From positions 2,294,001-2,358,000 of the forward strand of contig NZ_CP126446.1 in assembly GCF_030166655.1 (NCBI RefSeq): a DNA stretch of 64,000 bases. Direction: 5' to 3'. Shown here one piece after another: positions 54,609-64,000 of the stretch (its first letter is position 1; each line of letters begins with the position of its first letter). Under the pieces are notes generated by a model. The model was given only the letters and a program-made list of their open reading frames with translations, was not told the DNA's origin and made no database searches. The DNA is from Pontibacillus chungwhensis (GTDB taxonomy: Bacteria; Bacillota; Bacilli; Bacillales; BH030062). The position numbers and the translations under genes are program-made.

Positions 54609-55898
54609 TCATGATTGAAGGTTTTCAATTTGTTGATTGATCCTTGAAAGTTGTTCCTCTTTCTCTTCTTCACTTAAACCTTCATCGGACTCTACCTGGT
54701 CCTTTTTAGCTTTTAAAACCCTAATAGCAAAGTCCGCTTCATTTACTTCTTTCGCTAATGATACAGCTTGATCATACTCATTCAATTGGAAATGGCTATT
54801 GGCAGCGAGCCAAGTTGAGCGCGTCCCATTAACTTTTTTATGAAGCTCTAACACCTTTTCATAATCGTCATTGATCCATGCCTTTTCCATCATAACTCTA
54901 GGGGATTTGGACTCTATTTGAAGAATAACCTGATTGGCCTCTTGTGTTTGAAGCGAAACTAAATTCTCTACGACAGCTTCTTTTAAAGAATCTTTTAATG
55001 TATTTGCTTCCCTCAATGACTTAATGGTTCCGTCTAGAAGAGCCTCTGTTTCCCCGTTCACATTCTGCAAGCCTTCTAATAATCGGATAGCCTTTTCATG
55101 GTCATTCTGCAAGGAAGCTTGATAAGCAGCGGCACGTGCTTGTTGTGAAGCAAGCTGTCCCTTCAGCTCTTCCACCTCTTCTCTATATTCTAGTGATTTG
55201 CTATCGTCTTGATCTGCAGAAGTGCCTCCGCTGAATCCGATCCCTAATCCTAGCACAAGCATAGAGCCAGCAAGAATAAACGGATTTATCTTTGAAGATC
55301 GTTTAGGATCATCTTTAGAGTTAGGTGGTGGGCTAATAAGCTCTTCTAATTCATCGAGGCGTTTTGCTTGAGCCATTCTTTGGGCGAGTCTAGATTCATC
55401 CCAAGTAAGATGTGAGCTCCCTTTTCTTAAAATATGATGAAACGAATAAGAGGAAAACATGGATAAAAGGCAGGCTTGAAAAGCTTTAAATAGCTCTCCT
55501 TCCTCGTCGTTTGAAGGGGGAAGAACTTCTCTTAATCCTCTGTGACCAATCTTTAGACCATGTTCAGGATGGACAAAAAGATTATCTGGGTCCATGTAAG
55601 GGATGTAAGGCGATCCCTCTAACCTTCGTAATTGAAAAAGGTGGGCTAATGATGCCTTTTTCTCTTCTGTTGATGACGAGTGCTTAGAGCTCAGTGGGAC
55701 AAAAGCTGGATCGGTCTCATACGCTATCTTTAGCCTGTCCTCTTCCATATAGATCTCACCCACTCGCAGAAATAGTGGAAGGCCTCGTTTAAGTTCTTCT
55801 AACTGTTCTGTTTCTACAATATGTGTATCTTCTTTCAACACGATTGCGGTTAAGAATCGATTCTTTTCGTCTTGTTGAAGCTGAATAGGCTCTTCCAC
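54609..55898 (-). CDS. EssB/YukC-family pseudokinase membrane protein
   Basis: A 429-residue protein that follows the EssB plan: N-terminal pseudokinase domain (residues 1-190, with YIPYMDPDNLFVHPEHGLKI and GLREVLPP), one membrane helix (205-224) and a helical C-terminal domain. The C terminus LAKEVNEADFAIRVLKAKKD then EEEKEEQLSRINQQIENL aligns with B. subtilis YukC. EssB is a core part of type VIIb secretion, yet here it ends a Tad pilus cluster. It starts at GTG 55898 and overlaps the kinase gene by 49 nt. Confidence 0.85.
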   Translation of the reverse strand: MEEPIQLQQDEKNRFLTAIVLKEDTHIVETEQLEELKRGLPLFLRVGEIYMEEDRLKIAYETDPAFVPLSSKHSSSTEEKKASLAHLFQLRRLEGSPYIPYMDPDNLFVHPEHGLKIGHRGLREVLPPSNDEEGELFKAFQACLLSMFSSYSFHHILRKGSSHLTWDESRLAQRMAQAKRLDELEELISPPPNSKDDPKRSSKINPFILAGSMLVLGLGIGFSGGTSADQDDSKSLEYREEVEELKGQLASQQARAAAYQASLQNDHEKAIRLLEGLQNVNGETEALLDGTIKSLREANTLKDSLKEAVVENLVSLQTQEANQVILQIESKSPRVMMEKAWINDDYEKVLELHKKVNGTRSTWLAANSHFQLNEYDQAVSLAKEVNEADFAIRVLKAKKDQVESDEGLSEEEKEEQLSRINQQIENLQS

Positions 55899-56614
55899 AG
55901 GCCCTCCCCTCCTTTCTTTTGAATACGGTGAAGGTCAGCCTCAATCTCACATAGAGAAACCGACCGTGCTTCTATTGGACTTGTTAATCTCTTGCTCCAT
56001 GCATGAATTTCTGGATTCTTTAGCCTTTTGTCATTCAAATAACAAAGAAGCGCACCAAATCCATATAAGTCGGTTCTAACGTCTCCTTGAGATCTTACAT
56101 ATTGCTCCGGGGCCGCGAAACCTTCCGTCCCAATAGGGAAAGCGTCCTCTTCCTCAAATACACTAATCCCAAAATCAATAAGCGATACCTCTTTTGGTGA
56201 GTAAACAATAATATTTGAAGGAGAAAGATCTCTATGCACAATAGGGCGATCGCGACAATGGAGATCATGAAGAATCTTACATAAAGTCCTGCAAATCTGA
56301 AGTAGTTCATCACTGGAAGCATCTTTCATAAATGATGAAAGGGTGCTTCCCTCTTTGTATTCCTGAAGGGTTTCAACCCACCCTGTACTCTTATCAATAT
56401 CAATATGGTAAAAAGAAGGAATAGCTGGAGTATCCATGGTGATAAGTTTCTCAGCTTCGTTTATAAGCTGCTTAGAGAGAGGGTGATTTTTTTTCATTAT
56501 TTTCAGGATGAAGCGCCCTGGCCGATTAGGGGTGTGGACTAATGAGACAGAGGCTGAGCTTTCATTCTTAAATTCCTTGATTCGTTTATAAGAACCCACT
56601 TGATTGTCATACAT
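55850..56614 (-). CDS. soluble Ser/Thr protein kinase
   Basis: A 254-residue Hanks-type kinase with all core motifs: K38 (RFILKIM), E53 or E55 of helix C, H127-R128-D129 and N134 (HRDLSPSN), D147-F148-G149 and A168-P169-E170. The Gly-rich loop is poor, and no transmembrane or PASTA region is present. It overlaps the FHA gene by 8 nt and the EssB gene by 49 nt, so all three are translated together. Its likely product is a phosphothreonine mark read by the adjacent FHA domain (inference). Confidence 0.88.
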   Translation of the reverse strand: MYDNQVGSYKRIKEFKNESSASVSLVHTPNRPGRFILKIMKKNHPLSKQLINEAEKLITMDTPAIPSFYHIDIDKSTGWVETLQEYKEGSTLSSFMKDASSDELLQICRTLCKILHDLHCRDRPIVHRDLSPSNIIVYSPKEVSLIDFGISVFEEEDAFPIGTEGFAAPEQYVRSQGDVRTDLYGFGALLCYLNDKRLKNPEIHAWSKRLTSPIEARSVSLCEIEADLHRIQKKGGEGLWKSLFSFNKTKRIDS

Positions 56615-58016
56615 GCGCAGGTTCCGGATGATGGAAGGTCAACGTGCTATTTCCAATGATCACTTTGTCGTTATCTTTTAATTCATATACCTTATAAGGA
56701 ATTAATGGATTCTCATTCACATAGGTTCCATTCTTAGATCCTAAGTCTTTCACCCCGTAGTGATCTCCTACCTTTGTAAATTCAGCGTGGACACGCGAAA
56801 CACCCTCAACATCTTCTACGTGATGAACCATTTCATGATGTCTCCCGATCACGAAATGATCACGATTGATATTGACTGATTCTGTTTCATTGTTACGACG
56901 GACGGTTAAGAATGGAACGATGTCGCCTTTAATAGATTGGTAAGCGTATGATCCCCCATTCTCTTCTCCTAATGGATTTGTCTGAAATTCTTCTTCCACT
57001 CTTTCATCCGAAACAGACTTTGTTTCTCTGATAGAAGGAACCGAGAGCTCCTCTTCATTCTGAAGTTCTGAAGGCTTCTTAGGATTCTTTGTTTTTTTAG
57101 ATCTTTGAAAAATTCCTTTTCGCCATGCGAGATAACTACCATCAAGTATTGGAATGAGAATCGTAGAAATTGTGCTTATATAAAACCAAAGGGAAGTACC
57201 AGTAGATTGATAAACCTTCCAAAATAACGCAATAGCTAAAGCAGAACCAGCAAACAAGTACACCTTCTCACGGTCAGAAACGTTGGATGCTTCTTTCTTC
57301 CCCTTCTCCTTTTTATCTCGATCGGTATGAACCTCATTCATATCTTCAGGTTTCATTGGTTCTCCATCTTTCATGGAAGCATCTTGTAATGGATGATTAG
57401 ATTCTTGAGCTCTCGCTTCATCAAATGCATGATAGACAGACATAGACATCAGGAGTTCTTTTAAACCCTGTAAGTTATAGGAGGGACTTGCCACATACTG
57501 GCTTACTTCTTCTTGTTTTTCACCCTGAAGATGCTCATATTCTTCAAGCAGTTCATTTAATAAGGAACGAAGATCATCCGAAATATCTCCTTCCCTATCT
57601 AACTCTTTCATAGGAAGATAAGTCAGATAAACGTCTCCTACATCCCTTCCGATAAAGATGAAGTCTCGTTCAAGAACAAACTGGTTGTGATTAAGCATAT
57701 ATAAAGAACTCGCTTCGATCGCTTCAATAATATGAATAAAAAGATGGGCGAAATCATTCCATGATAACCGTTTCTCACGTAGATAGGGGGTGAGCATCCG
57801 TTTTGAGGAAAGGTCATAGTGAAGACGTAACTGCAGATCCATTTCATCTACCTTGACCGGCAATAAACGAGGGACAGTGTTGGACTGCATCATTTTCATC
57901 TGCAGGGCATTCAGGTCCTCCTCCTTCAAATGACGACCCTCTTTCCCCAAGCACACTAACTGGAGACCATTTTGTTGTCTAAAATCAAACGAGTATCCAA
58001 AAATCGTAGAATTCAA
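56607..58016 (-). CDS. FHA-domain membrane protein (DUF6382-FHA)
   Basis: A 469-residue protein: N-terminal DUF6382-like domain (residues 1-200), charged linker, two membrane helices at about 250-300, and a C-terminal FHA domain (about 385-460) with VIGRHHEMVHHV, GVSRVHAEF and DLGSKNGTYVN. FHA binds phosphothreonine. It begins at TTG after GGAGGGAA and precedes the kinase with overlap. The N-terminal part itself resembles the EssB pseudokinase region. Confidence 0.88.
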   Translation of the reverse strand: MNSTIFGYSFDFRQQNGLQLVCLGKEGRHLKEEDLNALQMKMMQSNTVPRLLPVKVDEMDLQLRLHYDLSSKRMLTPYLREKRLSWNDFAHLFIHIIEAIEASSLYMLNHNQFVLERDFIFIGRDVGDVYLTYLPMKELDREGDISDDLRSLLNELLEEYEHLQGEKQEEVSQYVASPSYNLQGLKELLMSMSVYHAFDEARAQESNHPLQDASMKDGEPMKPEDMNEVHTDRDKKEKGKKEASNVSDREKVYLFAGSALAIALFWKVYQSTGTSLWFYISTISTILIPILDGSYLAWRKGIFQRSKKTKNPKKPSELQNEEELSVPSIRETKSVSDERVEEEFQTNPLGEENGGSYAYQSIKGDIVPFLTVRRNNETESVNINRDHFVIGRHHEMVHHVEDVEGVSRVHAEFTKVGDHYGVKDLGSKNGTYVNENPLIPYKVYELKDNDKVIIGNSTLTFHHPEPAHV

Positions 58017-58048
58017 CCTATTCCCTCCGTTCTCTCTTTTAATTAGCT

Positions 58049-58561
58049 TTATAAAAAATAATAATAGGTAGTTAAAACAGCTGGTAATACTGCATACATA
58101 AAGGGAAACCTTGTTCTTTTGTTTTGCTTAAAGGCATCTAACTGAGAAGGATTTCTTTGTAGTACTCGCATCGTTCTTTCATATAAACGTATAAAAACCC
58201 TTTGCATTGGGGTCCTGACCACGAGCAAGATCACAATTCCAATGACACCTGCGTAAACGACAGAATACATCATCAAATAAAGCGTAAATTCAATTCCCAT
58301 AATCGCCCCAATCGCAGCAAATAGCTTTACATCACCTGCCCCGATCGCTTTAAACATATAAAGTAGCAAAAAGATGCCCCCAGATACCAACAGCCCAAGA
58401 CCTGAGAAAAGAAATCCGTTAATCCCTCCTGTCAGAAGGTGATACATTAAACCAGTCACCATTCCTATAGCCGTTAGCCAGTTGGGTAGTTTGTGATAGT
58501 TCACATCCCATATAAACGCTACAATAATAAATGCTATAAACAGTGCATCATACATCCCCAC
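58049..58561 (-). CDS. A24 prepilin peptidase (TadV/CpaA-like)
   Basis: A 170-residue membrane protease with aspartate D19 (FIWDVNYHKLPN) and the GAGDVK motif with D77, the two catalytic residues of the family. Four or five membrane helices follow. It cleaves the Flp prepilin and TadE-type leaders at the inner face of the membrane. A GTG start at 58561 has GGGGTGAG 7 nt upstream. Confidence 0.85.
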   Translation of the reverse strand: MGMYDALFIAFIIVAFIWDVNYHKLPNWLTAIGMVTGLMYHLLTGGINGFLFSGLGLLVSGGIFLLLYMFKAIGAGDVKLFAAIGAIMGIEFTLYLMMYSVVYAGVIGIVILLVVRTPMQRVFIRLYERTMRVLQRNPSQLDAFKQNKRTRFPFMYAVLPAVLTTYYYFL

Positions 58562-58633
58562 TAATCATCTCACCCCAGCTTGTATGCTCTTTCCTTATTT
58601 GAATAGATGGGTAGGAAACGAGTTCACCTACAA

Positions 58634-59194
58634 TTACTTTTCTTTTTCAACGTTTGTAAATTCCCATCCTACTCTTCTATTCTTCATATCTGATGTAATG
58701 TAATCCGATTGTAAGGTATAGGAATCACCTTTAATAACATAATAAATTCTGCCAGTTTCTGTCTCACCAGACTCGATGTTACCGGCCAATAATTGCTCAT
58801 TTCCAACCTGAATAGTTGAGCTTTTCTTACTAACTTTCGTTAACAGATCAAATGTTGAAAATGCATCTTCTACAGTAATAGTTGAATCTCCAGTATTTTC
58901 AATCGTAAAAGTAGGAATAACAAAGCGACCCGTTTCAGCTTTTTCACCATTTACTTGATCGGTGATCTCTACCTCATCTAGGGTCATTTTATAATTTCCA
59001 ATCGGCGTCTTAAAATGATGGGTTTCCCCCACCGAATAGTAAACGTCTTCACTTGAGGAGACTTTTTCTGAGTTATCTTGTTGTTGGTTCGCTTGACTGC
59101 TATTGTCGTTCTCTTTTTTTGACGTATCACTACAACCAGAAGCTAGAATAGCTAGAACCATACTAAAAATTAAGGTTTTGACAACGGTTCGCAT
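58634..59194 (-). CDS. Tad-locus lipoprotein A (DUF4352-like)
   Basis: A 186-residue lipoprotein: signal peptide with lipobox LASGC (Cys about residue 21), Ser/Asn/Gln-rich linker and a beta-sandwich region (VGETHHFKTPIGNYKMTL, FTIENTGDSTITVED, SGETETGRIYYVIK). This is the DUF4352/immunoglobulin-like pattern. It is paralogous to the lipoprotein at 59865 and lies among pilus genes. It may stabilise the pilus base outside the membrane (inference). Confidence 0.75.
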   Translation of the reverse strand: MRTVVKTLIFSMVLAILASGCSDTSKKENDNSSQANQQQDNSEKVSSSEDVYYSVGETHHFKTPIGNYKMTLDEVEITDQVNGEKAETGRFVIPTFTIENTGDSTITVEDAFSTFDLLTKVSKKSSTIQVGNEQLLAGNIESGETETGRIYYVIKGDSYTLQSDYITSDMKNRRVGWEFTNVEKEK

Positions 59195-59265
59195 GAACTC
59201 CCACCTTTCTTTATTTTCCTTCTTTATTCGAAAACTTCCAATCTATGTATTAGTTCCTTAAGGTA

Positions 59266-59820
59266 TTAGCCTCCAGTCCAGAGCCTTTCTGTTGCTCTCT
59301 TCTTTAGAATAATCGTCCGATCGACAAATGGCAGAACAATATCCAACTTGTATTCTGCTGTAATACTTACCATACCTTTTATATCAGCAGGAAGTTCTAC
59401 AGTAGCTTTTATATCATCTGGATTAAAAAATGAACCTGGCACATTCTCTCTAAAACTCTCTTGAACCGAAGATTCAATAGCTCCTTGTGAAAGCTGTTCA
59501 ATAACATTCAAGCCCGTTTCCCCAACACCAAAATCACTTAAAGACTTTCCTGACCATTTTTCAACATTCTCAAGAGAAATTAAGTCCATAGTAGCTCCTT
59601 TAATACGGTCATCTATGATAGAAGCTGGTGTTTCAGTAACATACGTCGCCGGGTAAGCATGAGTTGCTATCGTTTGGGTAGTGGAGGATACTGATTCTTC
59701 GAGTCCAATTTCTGCAATAGAAATACGTATAAGGGTGGCTAAAAAAACGACAAACAAGAGAAAAAAGGGTAAGATCATTGCAGCTTCTAACGTAATACTT
59801 CCTTTCACATTTCGAAACAT
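59266..59820 (-). CDS. TadE-like minor pseudopilin (second copy)
   Basis: A 184-residue protein with the class III-type leader VKGSITLEAAMILPFF (processing after Gly7, Glu at +5 or so) and one hydrophobic helix; the rest is periplasmic-side soluble domain. TadE/TadF proteins are minor pilins of Tad systems. AGGGGGGAGGTC precedes the ATG. Confidence 0.8.
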   Translation of the reverse strand: MFRNVKGSITLEAAMILPFFLLFVVFLATLIRISIAEIGLEESVSSTTQTIATHAYPATYVTETPASIIDDRIKGATMDLISLENVEKWSGKSLSDFGVGETGLNVIEQLSQGAIESSVQESFRENVPGSFFNPDDIKATVELPADIKGMVSITAEYKLDIVLPFVDRTIILKKRATERLWTGG

Positions 59821-59864
59821 TAGACCTCCCCCCTCCTTTGCTTAGATAAGTACATTAATAAGAA

Positions 59865-60443
59865 CTATTCCGCATCCTTTTCTACTTCCTCATTGGAAAA
59901 TTTCCAACCTAGCGTTTTAGTACCTTCCATATCCGCTGTCACATATCTGGATTTTATTTCATAGGTTTTTCCAGCTTTCATATCATAATAAACTTTCCCG
60001 TTCAAAGTTTCGCCAGGTTGAATTTCCTTAGTCCACCAATCCTTTTGATCTCCAATAACTCTTGTCTGGCTGATCATTATTAAAGGTGTTTTTATATCAA
60101 AAGTAGAGAATATAGATTCTACTTTTACTGCCTTATCCCCGGTGTTCTCAATACTAAATTCAGGAATAATAAACTCACCATTCATAGATTCTTCACTATC
60201 CACTACTTTTTTTTCGACGACATTTTTAAGATTCATTTTGTAGCTACCAAGTGTGGTTTCAAAATTATGGGTTTCTCCAATCTCGATTAATTGATTGCTT
60301 TCTTCATTATCAGGTTGTGTGGTTGTTTGATCAGAAGAATCTTTTGCGTCACTTGTAGTTTCATTTTCAGATTGATTATTACATGCAGAAAGAACTGCTA
60401 TTAATACCAGTAGTACGATTATTTTTATAGTCTTTTTCATCAT
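59865..60443 (-). CDS. Tad-locus lipoprotein B (paralogue of A)
   Basis: A 192-residue lipoprotein with lipobox LSAC (near residue 21), acidic Ser/Thr-rich linker and the same domain as lipoprotein A: IGETHNFETTLGSYKMNL, FSIENTGDKAVKVES, PGETLNGKVYYDMK. The pair points to a local gene duplication. The first or second ATG (60443 or 60440) may be used; GGAGGG lies 4 or 7 nt before them. Confidence 0.75.
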   Translation of the reverse strand: MMKKTIKIIVLLVLIAVLSACNNQSENETTSDAKDSSDQTTTQPDNEESNQLIEIGETHNFETTLGSYKMNLKNVVEKKVVDSEESMNGEFIIPEFSIENTGDKAVKVESIFSTFDIKTPLIMISQTRVIGDQKDWWTKEIQPGETLNGKVYYDMKAGKTYEIKSRYVTADMEGTKTLGWKFSNEEVEKDAE

Positions 60444-60462
60444 TTAACCCTCCATTAGTCAT

Positions 60463-62613
60463 TTAATACGAGTAAACAATTTTTGTTTCAATATAATACC
60501 TACCGTTTGAAACATCTCCGTTTACAATATTAGCTCTACCCAATAATTTGGTAATCCCAGGCAAGAACCATAAATCAACAGAAGATTCAACATTAGCCTT
60601 TATATAGGTAGGTAATTTAGACATATCTGAATTTGTAGACTTATCTACTGATGCCTGTATTCTTGCAATTTTCTTACCTTCTGGATGTAAGAAAAGAAAC
60701 ATCCTCAAATAAAATTTGTAATCAGTAAGCATAGAATAATCAGGTTTATAACCGTTTAGATCCACAAAAGAAACTTCTCCTCCAGAGGTTAAAACTTCCA
60801 TATTGTCCAGAGTTTTTTCCAACGCCACGCTTAATGCATACCAAAATTTCGCCCATGGATGAGGGATTAATTTTACTGTTTCATTATTTGAAAATTCCCC
60901 CGCCAAGTTCAAAGCGAGACGCGTTAAAAATAGTTCCGTCAAAGCATAACCATAATTAATCCCAGGTTGGTGGGATCCATAAATGATGTATTCTACTTCT
61001 CTATTGGAATAAAGGTATGCTTCTGGTAAACATTTGTACATTGGTGTTTGGTTACCACAACTAGATAATTCACTTGGATTTTGAACACTTTTAAATCTAG
61101 TCATAATGTATTCATTTATATATGCCTCATCCCTCACACCTGTAAGGATTTCACTCAAGTTACCAAATAGATCATCCATTTGATTTACCGCAGCCTTTGA
61201 AGTCCCCTCAGCGCTAGTCATTTCATCAACGCTAATTGCATTAGACCCTGTGTAATTCCCTAATAAAGTTTGTAATTCATCATATTCTCCTTTATCCTTA
61301 TACGTTGCTTTCCCTTGTTCAAAGATATCTTTTGCTAGCTTAAATTTATCCTTAGCTTTCTCTTTTTTACCAGCAGCAATATCATTTTCTGTAAAATACT
61401 CTTTTGGAATATAGGTAGTAAAGTCTTGATTAATAGTATTAACTGTCTTTCTCCATTTTCCATAAGGATCTCTAATACTTTTTATAAGAGAAGCAAGGTT
61501 TGGTGGTTTGCTCTCTGATTGAAATGCTTCCTTCATAACATCTTCAAGATGGCGGATGCGGTCTAGTGCTGAAGAGGAAGTCTTATCTCCTATATACTGG
61601 TGTGCATCTTTGATCTTGCCTTCTAAGGTCGTTAAAGGAGCCTTCTTTATCACATATTGATCCACACTGTTACTTGCCTCTTGCATACCTTGTGTATCCG
61701 CACTAGCACATTTCGATCTCATCCGTTCGTACTTGGCGTCATTCTTCTCTTTAAATCCATCAATCTCTTTTTCTATTTTTTCATTCAACTTTATAACTTC
61801 TTCTAAATCGTCCTGTGCCTTCTTTAACGATTTAGTCGCTATATTCAGTTGTTTCTCAATTGTATTGACAGTACTTTTTGAGTTTGACTCAAAATCTGGT
61901 CGATCTTCCCCTTCAGTATCATCCTCATAGTCATCAAAATTCACAAGGATATCTTGAAGGTCTGATGCAGAAGGATAACTCCTTTTATTTCCGTTTACTT
62001 TGTCTTTGATGCGGAAAAGTGCTTCGTTCGCCTTACGTAGTTCTTCTTTTAAGTCATTAATTGCTGTACTTCTCTTTGTGAATTCCGGATCAACTTCACT
62101 AGCGATATTCACAAATTCTGATGTTTTCTCCATCGCACATGCTACGGGGTTAAGCTGTTCTGTTATAAGTTTTCCGTATTCCACAGGGGCCGTGTATTTC
62201 ATATCTTCCAAGATCTGATGCTTAAATACATCGACGTTTCTAAGCGTTCTATCGGGGTCACTTTCCAATGTATATTCTTCTAATTGATTATCTATAAAGT
62301 GAAAATAGTCCCCTTCAGCGTTTAAATTACTTTTAAATACTTCTTCAAAAATATCTTCTTCTGAAACACTCTCTTCATGAAAGGCGTACATCCCCATCTT
62401 CTGTAATTCAGTATCATAAGCTGAAAATGTAGAGCGCAATGATTTTTTTGCAGCTACCTCTGTTTGGTGCTCCGCAACCATTATTCGAGCAAAGTCGATA
62501 AAAACTGCATTGAAAATAAATAACAGCAGGACTACTATGATTAAGTAGATGGAGACAGCTCCGCTTTCATCTCTTATGAACTTTCGTTTTAAATGAAGCA
62601 ATGTTCTTCTCAC
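60463..62613 (-). CDS. large TadG/DUF5702-like component
   Basis: A 716-residue protein. The N-terminal segment (residues 15-45, DESGAVSIYLIIVVLLLF) resembles a pseudopilin leader and membrane anchor of TadG-type proteins. The remainder is a long helical, coiled-coil-rich region (about 180-420) and a C-terminal domain ending in NGRYYIETKIVYSY. It fits DUF5702, found in Firmicute Tad loci. It starts at GTG after GAGGTGAGAAGACA. It could form the pilus tip or anchor (inference). Confidence 0.75.
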   Translation of the reverse strand: MRRTLLHLKRKFIRDESGAVSIYLIIVVLLLFIFNAVFIDFARIMVAEHQTEVAAKKSLRSTFSAYDTELQKMGMYAFHEESVSEEDIFEEVFKSNLNAEGDYFHFIDNQLEEYTLESDPDRTLRNVDVFKHQILEDMKYTAPVEYGKLITEQLNPVACAMEKTSEFVNIASEVDPEFTKRSTAINDLKEELRKANEALFRIKDKVNGNKRSYPSASDLQDILVNFDDYEDDTEGEDRPDFESNSKSTVNTIEKQLNIATKSLKKAQDDLEEVIKLNEKIEKEIDGFKEKNDAKYERMRSKCASADTQGMQEASNSVDQYVIKKAPLTTLEGKIKDAHQYIGDKTSSSALDRIRHLEDVMKEAFQSESKPPNLASLIKSIRDPYGKWRKTVNTINQDFTTYIPKEYFTENDIAAGKKEKAKDKFKLAKDIFEQGKATYKDKGEYDELQTLLGNYTGSNAISVDEMTSAEGTSKAAVNQMDDLFGNLSEILTGVRDEAYINEYIMTRFKSVQNPSELSSCGNQTPMYKCLPEAYLYSNREVEYIIYGSHQPGINYGYALTELFLTRLALNLAGEFSNNETVKLIPHPWAKFWYALSVALEKTLDNMEVLTSGGEVSFVDLNGYKPDYSMLTDYKFYLRMFLFLHPEGKKIARIQASVDKSTNSDMSKLPTYIKANVESSVDLWFLPGITKLLGRANIVNGDVSNGRYYIETKIVYSY

Positions 62614-62631
62614 TGTCTTCTCACCTCTTTA

Positions 62632-63288
62632 TTACCGACTAGATTGATTTCTAAAGTTACTGAATAACGATCTAAAGTTTGGAGTATTTTTAATTTGGTT
62701 AACTGCATAAACTGCAAAATCCACATTCCTCATAAATTCCACCGGCTCATTCACTCGCCGCTTGGCGGTTACATCAAGCTGATCAATACCAAATAAATCC
62801 TTCGTGAAAGAGGGAATATTAAGAGGACTAATCAGCCTCACTTTGACAAAGTTACCAGTTAAGCCATTTTCGTAAGTGATTGAAGGACGATCTCCAAAGG
62901 GCACGGTTCCGATACGAGCTGGGTCAATTTTTTTAGCCTTTACCCCACCATCCCCTATTTCAAGAGAAATTCCAAATTGTTCTAAGAAGTCATTTCCCGT
63001 AAAGCGCCAATATAGCCCATCATCCCCTGGATCATAAGTCGTGTAATCACTCGCTTTAAATTCACCCGTCACCCAATCCTTCTTACTGTTATCCCACGTA
63101 TAAGCAATTCGCTCAGCTATTGTAGTAGCGCTGTAATGCATCATTGCCTTCTGGTAGATCACTAGACTGAAAAAAATTAGGCAAAGGGTTAGGATAAGAA
63201 GCGTCGGGAAGATAATAGATGCTTCTATCGTGAAACTTCCCGACCTGTCTTTCTTAAAGGTTTGGATCTGTTTCATAACTTTCTTCAT
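62632..63288 (-). CDS. TadE-like minor pseudopilin (first copy)
   Basis: A 218-residue protein with the leader DRSGSFTIEASIIFPTLLIL (Gly cleavage, Glu +5) and a single membrane helix. The soluble domain is about 170 residues. GGAGGGATGGT precedes the ATG. It is downstream of the Flp pilin and upstream of the DUF5702 gene. Confidence 0.82.
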   Translation of the reverse strand: MKKVMKQIQTFKKDRSGSFTIEASIIFPTLLILTLCLIFFSLVIYQKAMMHYSATTIAERIAYTWDNSKKDWVTGEFKASDYTTYDPGDDGLYWRFTGNDFLEQFGISLEIGDGGVKAKKIDPARIGTVPFGDRPSITYENGLTGNFVKVRLISPLNIPSFTKDLFGIDQLDVTAKRRVNEPVEFMRNVDFAVYAVNQIKNTPNFRSLFSNFRNQSSR

Positions 63289-63314
63289 ACCATCCCTCCA
63301 AGATAAGCAGGTTA

Positions 63315-63503
63315 TTATTCTTGTTGGAAATCACTGATGTTCTCATCACCGAAGTTGATTAGGTCATTGACCCATCCCATAATGCTATCCCTGAATAAGA
63401 GAGCGATCACGACAATAACAGCGATAATCAACATAATCTCAAGCGTCTGTAGCCCTTCTTCATCATCTTTAAATTGCGTTACCCATTTCATTAAAGTTTC
63501 CAT
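63315..63503 (-). CDS. Flp-type major pilin
   Basis: A 62-residue prepilin with the class IVb signature DDEEGLQTLEIMLIIAVIVV: cleavage after Gly17 and the conserved Glu at +5 of the mature chain (E22). A short hydrophobic core and an acidic tail follow. This is the structural subunit of the Tad pilus. The ribosome site GGAGGTATATAC is strong, as expected for an abundant protein. Confidence 0.88.
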   Translation of the reverse strand: METLMKWVTQFKDDEEGLQTLEIMLIIAVIVVIALLFRDSIMGWVNDLINFGDENISDFQQE

Positions 63504-63541
63504 GTATATACCTCCTAAATGTTTTCAAATAATTTAACTGT

Positions 63542-64000
63542 CTACAAGATTGTAATCGCCGGATAGCCGACTATAATCATGACAGCGATAAATATAAGAA
63601 TTAGGGGAAAGACTAATTTAGAAGAAGCTTCCTCCCCTTTTGTTTTTGAGATGTTTTTCCTTTTCTCCCACAGGTCTTGAGAGAGTTCACGCAGCGCTAG
63701 AATTAAATCTTGTCCACCTTTTCGGTAGTTTAATAGAATCGTTGTCGTGAATATAGAAACCTCCTGGATCCCGACCTTCTTACTCAAATCATTCATCACC
63801 TGATGAAATGGTTCATTACTCGTTAACTTGTTTACGGTGTCTCTTAATTCTTTATAGAGAGGTGAGTTTTTATCTTTGGTGCTTGAGACACAATGAACGA
63901 GCGCTCGCTGAACCGTTTCACCGGCATTTACGAGGAGGATAATTTTGTTCACCACTTCCGGGAGTTCGGTTAAAATTTGATCCTTCCGTTCTTTCTCTTC
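63542..64000 (-). CDS. tadC: TadC-like type II secretion F-domain protein (C-terminal part)
   Basis: The frame is open to base 64000, so the N terminus is outside the window; 152 residues are visible. ELPEVVNKIILLVNAGETVQ and YRKGGQDLILALRELSQ are typical of the T2SSF domain of TadB/TadC, followed by a terminal membrane helix. TadB/TadC form the inner-membrane platform driven by the TadA ATPase, which presumably lies just to the right. Confidence 0.85.
   Translation of the reverse strand, partial: EEKERKDQILTELPEVVNKIILLVNAGETVQRALVHCVSSTKDKNSPLYKELRDTVNKLTSNEPFHQVMNDLSKKVGIQEVSIFTTTILLNYRKGGQDLILALRELSQDLWEKRKNISKTKGEEASSKLVFPLILIFIAVMIIVGYPAITIL

Follow-up and report, generated by a model that had tools for sequence, protein, structure and literature searches.

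An EssB/YukC-family pseudokinase gene at the distal end of a Tad pilus locus of Pontibacillus chungwhensis

Introduction

EssB is a core part of type VII secretion and counts as a hallmark of the type VIIb system.

The pseudokinase domain of YukC copurifies with the FHA region of YukB (PMC9600267), and the consulted parts of two papers describe this contact in type VIIb systems (T7SSb) as thought to be independent of phosphorylation, the FHA domains there being without a phospho-threonine (pThr) pocket (PMC9600267, PMC11217815). Published work identifies TraF, from the type IV secretion system (T4SS) of pIP501, as a structural homologue of EssB/YukC, in a text that makes no mention of "Tad" (PMC13037476). 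Garrett et al. (2024) described T7SSe, with the kinase TseD, the phosphatase TseF, the DUF6382-FHA protein TseJ, and TseK, and in the same source T7SSg and T7SSh adjoin Tad pilus genes, a published case of type VII and Tad co-location (PMC11217815).

Here we analyzed a 64,000-nucleotide stretch of the P. chungwhensis genome, referred to as the window, in which a Tad/Flp pilus locus ends in an EssB-family gene. A first-pass annotation had proposed that an EssB scaffold was taken over from type VIIb secretion to couple a phospho-signalling pair to Tad pilus assembly, an interpretation that our data partly support. It had not recognized the combination as described; likewise, searches of an open-access library, preprints aside, turned up no account of a Tad-linked EssB.

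Results

On the minus strand of the window, positions 54609 to 64000 hold the distal part of a complete Tad gene set of the monoderm kind. The C-terminal part of TadC (63542-64000; the remainder lies beyond the window) is followed by a 62-aa Flp1-like pilin (63315-63503; PF16982, 45.7 bits, cut-off 33.5), a TadE-like protein (62632-63288; PF07811, 25.7 bits, cut-off 22.9), a 716-aa DUF5702 protein (60463-62613; PF18960, 34 bits, cut-off 26), a second TadE-like protein (59266-59820) and an A24 prepilin peptidase (58049-58561; PF01478, 58.5 bits, cut-off 26.5), all on the minus strand. The second TadE-like protein scored 17.8 bits with PF07811, below the cut-off of 22.9, and has homologues at the same position in relatives. 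Two minus-strand genes for DUF4352 lipoproteins, which the first-pass annotation does not name, flank it (59865-60443, PF11611, 37 bits; 58634-59194, PF11611, 38.8 bits). The last three genes of the set, also on the minus strand, encode a 469-aa DUF6382-FHA protein (56607-58016; PF19909, 89.9 bits, cut-off 26.7; PF00498, 56.7 bits, cut-off 20.7), a 254-aa Hanks-type Ser/Thr kinase (55850-56614; PF00069, 64.1 bits, cut-off 31.7) and a 429-aa EssB/YukC-family pseudokinase (54609-55898; PF10140, 87.5 bits, gathering cut-off 27.4). All Tad, FHA, kinase and EssB genes named in the first-pass annotation were present, and the head-to-tail overlaps that it had seen measure 8 nt between the FHA and kinase genes and 49 nt between the kinase and EssB genes. 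EssB starts with GTG, directly downstream of a GGAGG stretch. Promoter and terminator scans showed no excess over shuffled sequences (23 vs 26.3 and 7 vs 6.6, respectively).

The remainder of TadC and the TadB, TadA and TadZ-like genes are encoded on the same strand just outside the window (11542-15722 of L008, the window locus), so the gene set is complete. TadC and TadB matched T2SSF at 35.1 and 45.5 bits and TadA matched T2SSE at 192.7 bits, while the TadZ-like protein matched AAA_31 at 31.9 bits, above the cut-off, and a TadZ-like receiver domain at 22 bits, below the cut-off of 27.4. With TadA, TadB/TadC, a TadZ-like protein, a Flp prepilin, TadE-like proteins and an A24 peptidase, the locus is of the Tad/Flp type by its genes.

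EssB of the window consists of an N-terminal pseudokinase-like domain, a hydrophobic segment near residue 204 and a C-terminal domain; this segment is the single one between the two domains, as in a family with one transmembrane segment (TM). Alignments read by eye showed that HRG replaces the kinase DFG and that there is no HRD aspartate before PDN, which marks the domain as a pseudokinase; for S. aureus EssB, the consulted part of a published account gives TRG at that motif (PMC12599244). With TIGR03926, the NCBIfam equivalog for T7SSb EssB, the protein scored 108 bits, below the cut-off of 229.75. A profile built from three Tad EssBs matched the EssB structures 4ann, 4ano and 2ynq and the TraF structure 8cba (5.7e-7).

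The gene order A24 peptidase, DUF6382-FHA, optional PP2C, kinase, EssB was found in all seven loci of the Tad EssB clade, so that the linkage to Tad genes on which the first-pass reading depended holds in relatives. In two of the seven, a zinc-ribbon membrane protein of 266-269 aa is encoded between kinase and EssB. Six of the seven (L008, L206-L210) showed TadZ, TadA, TadB and TadC genes, the seventh, L103, being covered without its upstream region. Distances among the EssBs tracked those among the FHA proteins (r 0.86, a value reached in 6 of 5040 permutations) and the kinases (r 0.74, reached in 7 of 5040), a co-inheritance that may equally reflect shared species history. EssB remnants occur in G560 and G584, where the match is confined to the final 97 and 55 residues; the genes after EssB are kept there, being 98% and 83% identical to the next gene of G056, and TadA matches were absent apart from ATPases at 34 bits or less. 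The joint absence of TadA and of most of EssB in these two genomes counts for behaviour as a unit.

The clade is rare. In the order, 6 of 397 genomes have it, by a search that gave matches in 103 genomes, the stronger of which were followed into 20 new neighbourhoods; in the phylum, 1 of 299 genomes has it, namely the window genome. A scan of genome contigs returned two loci. Among 150 relatives, three of the eight DUF6382 loci with TadA-TadC genes contained EssB, and the Tad-EssB profile had no match in 20 opened loci of the class with DUF6382 (of 51 genomes above the cut-off). Tad loci in general do without EssB. A protein of G743 (L176) reached 215 bits with the Tad-EssB profile; it has no Tad-family gene within 20 kb and falls in the other group of the tree, not with the Tad EssBs.

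In an alignment of seven kinases, the window kinase keeps the catalytic K/E/D/N/D residues and has a degenerate glycine-rich loop. The window FHA domain retains the pThr-pocket residues, and alignments showed these and the kinase catalytic residues to be kept in all seven EssB-positive loci. A crude hydrophobicity scan found no TM in the window DUF6382-FHA protein, whereas most relatives gave one or two. Six of the seven DUF6382-FHA proteins from EssB-positive loci carry a DDTVLL-like motif immediately ahead of the FHA domain, vs 0 of 31 others, with the pattern written after the alignment was seen and the compared rows related to one another. The window copy has no such motif, and no PP2C hit was found in L008. 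From these residues and genes, the relatives look phospho-switchable, whereas the switch of the window genome looks reduced because the PP2C and the threonine motif are gone and the glycine loop of the kinase is degenerate. The phospho-signalling pair of the first-pass annotation is thus present and linked to EssB as genes, but its signalling part looks incomplete in the window, and DUF6382-FHA, PP2C and kinase genes also turned up in T7SSe-like loci and in Tad loci that have no EssB. They are a shared module, not one peculiar to EssB-positive Tad loci. In the FHA tree, the EssB-positive loci did not form a single clade (3 changes; four of the seven in one branch at 99).

A profile comparison of DUF6382 with the full EssB set gave 65%, and with four subsets 0.4-1.9%. 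With more rows the value was 82.6% at a score of 43.6, vs at most 18.2 for 30 column shuffles and 12.1 for the reversed profile; two subsets gave 42-43% and the Tad EssBs alone less than 1%. For comparison, EssB scored 41.4 against active kinases, its accepted relatives, whereas DUF6382 reached only 20.3 against the same kinases. When the DUF6382-FHA profile was run against the PDB, matches were confined to its C-terminal, FHA-bearing part. We keep it as a suggestion that DUF6382 may be an EssB-like domain.

Discussion

Does the Tad-linked EssB belong to another machine? The window genome has EssC, YukD-like and two WXG100 genes 1.33 Mb from the Tad locus, and none of these was recognized in L008; the first-pass statement that such genes are missing stands for the locus, not for the genome. 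It had named a full type VIIb locus just outside the window as a threat to its reading, and there is none, the distant EssC (C1:3679408-3684015) being the only full-length one. That EssC has no EssB nearby and the Tad-linked EssB is the sole PF10140 match of the genome, as would suit an EssB that works in trans for type VII secretion and sits among Tad genes by accident. However, the search for EssC in the six other clade genomes (G056, G143, G492, G529, G712 and that of L103; L104 is a stretch of G056 and so not an extra genome) returned only FtsK/SpoIIIE-like proteins at 83 bits or less, and six other genomes carrying an EssC 52-61% identical to that of the window had no PF10140 match. We rejected this very improbable reading because six of the seven clade genomes have no EssC match. 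Nor do the trees show an EssB acquired from type VIIb: they place the Tad-linked EssBs on a branch by themselves (94/96), outside that of T7SSb EssB (100/100). A 24-row tree joined this clade to EssBs of which several adjoin VirB4/VirD4-like genes (100/100), profile comparison gave E 5e-44 to the VirB4/VirD4-associated group vs 7e-32 to T7SSb, and in a congener, G004, VirB4- and VirD4-like genes lie on either side of an EssB-family gene (L069). It is quite unlikely, though, that EssB goes back to a TraF-like part of a conjugation machine that ended up in an ancestral Tad locus by chance and does little there. The seven copies, at 26-50% pairwise identity, have retained open frame and place; VirB4/VirD4-like genes were not found in seven EssB-positive stretches (L008, L037, L038, L103 and L105 at E 1e-10, L175 and L177 at E 1e-3); and the grouping with T4SS-type relatives was weak (33/5) in a 35-row tree, which leaves out L118 (a very long branch in the first tree), the broken L117 gene and the T7SSb-type L182, L183, L185, L186, L187, L189 and L191. 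Because relatives adjoin VirB4/VirD4-like genes and TraF is a published homologue, the EssB family spans three machines: type VIIb secretion, T4SS-type systems and the Tad pilus. Our data suggest that several machines of the envelope share a scaffold of the same kind.

EssB could instead be an anchor for the kinase rather than a pilus scaffold, replacing the membrane and helical half of the long kinases, or the TseK-like protein, found in other Tad and T7SSe-like loci. The kinases of the seven EssB-positive loci are short (254-313 aa), whereas 8 of the 13 from EssB-negative Tad-type loci have 494-780 aa, and the one of these that was scanned, from L057, has TPR repeats. TseK-like proteins, matched by description and not by sequence, occur in eight loci, three of them Tad loci without EssB and none EssB-positive, and the TseK-like profile had no match in EssB-positive loci. 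The split of a long kinase-TPR protein into a short kinase and EssB is too weak to be put first because the remaining 5 of those 13 kinases, at 267-342 aa, are short as well. Moreover, four of the seven kinases in EssB-positive loci carry a hydrophobic C-terminal segment of their own; in the window kinase, a hydrophobic segment scan found none. We consider the anchor unlikely.

Our preferred reading, to which we give a probability of roughly 0.6, is that EssB belongs to Tad loci of this type as a dedicated component and most likely serves as a membrane scaffold acting on the FHA protein. By analogy with the docking of YukC on YukB, the presumably cytoplasmic pseudokinase domain of EssB would probably bind the FHA domain of the DUF6382-FHA protein encoded nearby, and the C-terminal domain of EssB would point towards the wall or the pilus. 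In relatives, the adjacent kinase and PP2C may set a phospho-threonine state, with the acidic DDTVLL motif before the FHA domain as candidate site; that state would decide whether the FHA domain binds the motif or a partner, and this choice could gate pilus assembly or report surface contact. In the window genome, the scaffold may act without the full switch. Points that weigh against this reading are the rarity of the clade, the Tad loci that manage without EssB, the G743 match away from Tad genes, the switch parts missing from the window copy and the phosphorylation-independent contact proposed for T7SSb.

A wider proposal is tentative, and we would not bet on it at even odds: EssB-type pseudokinases may be a general plug-in scaffold read by FHA domains in monoderm envelope machines of the type VIIb, conjugative type IV and Tad kinds, with DUF6382 a worn EssB-like pseudokinase in Tad and T7SSe loci, phospho-threonine TxLL motifs, either in cis ahead of the FHA domain or as arrays on TseK-like proteins, switching the machine, and Tad and type VII having exchanged this control module.

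The separate, conserved Tad EssB branch, with no EssC match in six of its seven genomes, shows that type VII secretion should not be deduced from an EssB gene by itself. For the Tad pilus in some bacilli it provides a candidate scaffold and phospho-control unit, and the Tad-linked EssB offers a simpler setting for the pairing of pseudokinase and FHA domains, free of the EssC ATPase.

Among the known systems, T7SSg and T7SSh, as described in the consulted part of their source, have a TsxC (EssC-type) ATPase system next to Tad, whereas the window locus has an EssB relative only. T7SSe shares the module of kinase, PP2C and DUF6382-FHA, of which the window has the DUF6382-FHA protein and the kinase; L008 had no PP2C, TseK-like, EssC or WXG100 matches. 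T7SSe differs in having EssC and WXG100, and EssB is not among its components in the consulted description (PMC11217815). TraF shares the profile match to its structure but belongs to a conjugation machine, and according to the consulted text none of the Tra proteins of pIP501 was found to have an FHA fold (PMC13037476). Compared with T7SSb, the Tad EssBs lie on a separate branch, with the window EssB below the equivalog cut-off, in a locus without recognized EssC, YukD or WXG100 and with the FHA domain on a separate protein that keeps its pThr pocket. EssB/YukC of type VIIb and the Tad EssB nevertheless have in common PF10140, the match to the EssB structures, a pseudokinase domain, one TM, a C-terminal domain and a partner with an FHA domain.

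Linkage of EssB to Tad pilus loci

As the first-pass annotation had observed, the final 9.4 kb of the window carries Tad parts followed by FHA, kinase and EssB-family genes. On the minus strand, the run starts with TadC (part), a Flp1-like pilin, a TadE-like protein and DUF5702, continues with a DUF4352 lipoprotein, a second TadE-like protein, a second DUF4352 lipoprotein and an A24 prepilin peptidase, and ends with a DUF6382-FHA protein, a Ser/Thr kinase and an EssB/YukC-family protein. Past the window edge (stretch L008), TadC, TadB, TadA and a TadZ-like gene complete the run. DUF4352 lipoprotein genes are multiplied, with two in the window (58634-60443), six in stretch L037 and five in L038; PP2C plus lipoprotein units are repeated in L061.

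Linkage of EssB to Tad-locus neighbours in relatives, which the same annotation had named as a point to check, was seen in seven loci (EssB+ loci): the window, G056, G143, L103 (Cytobacillus massiliigabonensis), G492, G529 and G712; L104 (Alkalicoccobacillus gibsonii) and G056 represent one and the same contig stretch and were counted once. The order A24, DUF6382-FHA, PP2C, kinase, EssB is common to the six loci outside the window, and TadZ, TadA, TadB and TadC genes lie upstream in the window genome and in G056, G143, G492, G529 and G712. The gap from kinase to EssB was -49, 8, 31, 945, 438, 842 and 15 nt in the seven loci. A zinc-ribbon membrane protein lies between the two genes in L103 and G529 (L103 9069-9869; L175 10623-11432), and a relative of it occurs in a distant Tad-like locus (L062 827-1621).

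The arrangement is rare. An order search found this EssB in this setting in 6 of 397 genomes; the next best match (G743, 215 bits) fell in another group of the tree than the Tad EssBs and had no Tad-family gene in the 20 kb opened. Among 299 genomes of the phylum, the window genome alone scored above 65 bits.

Family identity and tree

The window EssB matched PF10140 at 87.5 bits (cut-off 27.4) and stayed below the equivalog cut-off for T7SSb EssB. A profile built from three Tad-linked EssBs matched the EssB structures 4ann (9e-10), 4ano (3.7e-7) and 2ynq (1.9e-4), and also 8cba, TraF of pIP501 (5.7e-7). PF10140 scores in 150 relatives were at least 362 bits in 29 genomes and 64-87 bits in G056, G143 and the window genome; G004 reached 41 bits, and G015 has a broken trace. 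The DUF6382 domain (window 56607-58016) weakly matched the EssB pseudokinase domain by profile; the match stood at 82.6% when every row was included and fell far below this for subsets.

A 24-row tree placed the T7SSb EssBs on one side of a branch (100/100), the Tad EssBs on another (93/94) and the remaining EssBs on a third (89/83); a split at 100/100 set T7SSb apart from the Tad and third groups taken together. The T7SSb branch (100/100) and the Tad branch (94/96) both persisted with 35 rows, where L188, L069 and L193 lay outside the third group and the link from Tad to third group was weak (33/5). The separate T7SSb and Tad branches in both trees argue that the Tad EssBs are no late offshoot of T7SSb EssB.

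Independence from type VII secretion

We used EssC of the window genome as query in 23 genomes and then in 8 further genomes or stretches. G056, G143, G492, G529, G712 and the genomes of L103 and L104 gave FtsK/SpoIIIE-like matches only (at most 83 bits) in the contigs searched, from assemblies that may be incomplete. The EssC locus of the window genome itself (C1:3679408-3684015, in L010, G000:C1:3671001-3691000) has two WXG100 genes, a YukD-like gene (24.6 bits, cut-off 27), and FHA, PP2C and kinase genes; it has no EssB match, and its FHA protein has no DUF6382 match. We read this locus as T7SSe-like. EssCs 52-61% identical to this one occur in G058, G147, G120, G091, G095 and G029, none of which has a PF10140 match in its genome. 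Because the EssB carriers other than the window genome lack an EssC match and these EssC carriers lack a PF10140 match, Tad-type EssB and this type VII system can each occur without the other.

EssB remnants point to joint loss. G560 and G056 share 98% identity in the gene after EssB, and the EssB match in G560 covers the last 97 residues only (L178 9983-10273); among the other Tad-locus proteins searched, one lipoprotein alone matched in the 20 kb. The corresponding gene in G584 is 83% identical, with 55 matching EssB residues (L180 9959-10123), and a T7SSb-type EssC match is present (573 bits). A TadA query returned ATPase matches only, at most 34 bits, in both genomes. The Tad locus is lost in both, and EssB went with it and was not retained.

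EssB pairwise distances among the loci track those of FHA (r 0.86, 6/5040 permutations), kinase (r 0.74, 7/5040), A24 (r 0.68, 48/5040) and TadE2 (r 0.64, 98/5040), correlations that shared species history alone could explain.

Tad loci in general do not require EssB. The Tad-EssB profile matched 0 of 20 opened class loci (in L131 the DUF6382 gene stands at a contig end); 11 of these loci, all from family f50, had no kinase and no PP2C in the stretch. Four of seven congeners (G001, G002, G003, G005) have TadA genes 44-47% identical; the opened Tad loci of G001, G003 and G005 (L203, L204, L205) showed no DUF6382-FHA, kinase, PP2C or EssB profile match and are different Tad loci. PF19909 (DUF6382) matched in 0/7 congeners.

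A putative phospho-switch

In the alignments, the FHA domains of all seven EssB+ loci keep GR, SR.H and NG[TS], and the lysine, glutamate, catalytic aspartate, asparagine and DFG aspartate are retained in every one of the seven kinases. An acidic TVLL/TMLL motif stands directly before the FHA domain in 6/7 EssB+ proteins and 0/31 other DUF6382-FHA proteins, a lead rather than a test, since the pattern was drawn up after the alignment was viewed and the rows are related. PP2C is likewise present in six of seven loci. The window copy is the odd one, with neither PP2C nor motif and with a kinase glycine loop without glycines; it may have a reduced switch, or its partner site may be at another position.

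FHA domains often prefer a phospho-threonine that is followed by leucine or isoleucine at position +3. Near its start, the 818-aa kinase by the type VII locus of the window genome has three TxLL motifs; EssC there has one. By eye, TxLL-like repeats (ETTLL, PTALL, TELL and the like) also occur in proteins that we call TseK-like by description, not by sequence, in Tad loci without EssB (L057 4688-5164; L058 14496-14897; L060 3492-4100) and in T7SSe-like loci (L063-L066, L068). A strict pattern gave at least three repeats in 4/8 of these proteins, a number never reached in shuffled proteins. These repeats may form arrays of sites at which FHA domains bind phospho-threonine. The TseK-like profile had no match in the EssB+ loci.

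Comparison with known systems

VirB4-like or VirD4-like genes share a stretch with EssB relatives in L069, L106, L109, L110, L113, L123, L188 and L193, as with the broken relative of L117; no such match was found in the stretches searched of L107, L108, L111, L112, L118, L176, L179 and L192. Because EssB-family genes share stretches with these genes, conjugation-type loci with TraF/EssB-like proteins may be more numerous than stated in the TraF paper (PMC13037476).

DUF6382-FHA, PP2C and kinase genes share a contig stretch with type VII genes in five genomes with related EssCs (G147, G120, G091, G095 and G029, the five of the six that were opened at this locus; EssC of G029 lies just beyond the opened stretch), which fits T7SSe as described by Garrett et al. 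2024 (PMC11217815). In B. subtilis, YukC spans the membrane once and has a helical domain outside the cell; its pseudokinase domain attaches to the FHA region of YukB in a contact that apparently needs no phosphorylation (PMC9600267). This pairing offers a possible model for how the Tad-linked EssB works. Unlike in YukB, the FHA domain of the Tad loci sits on a protein of its own.
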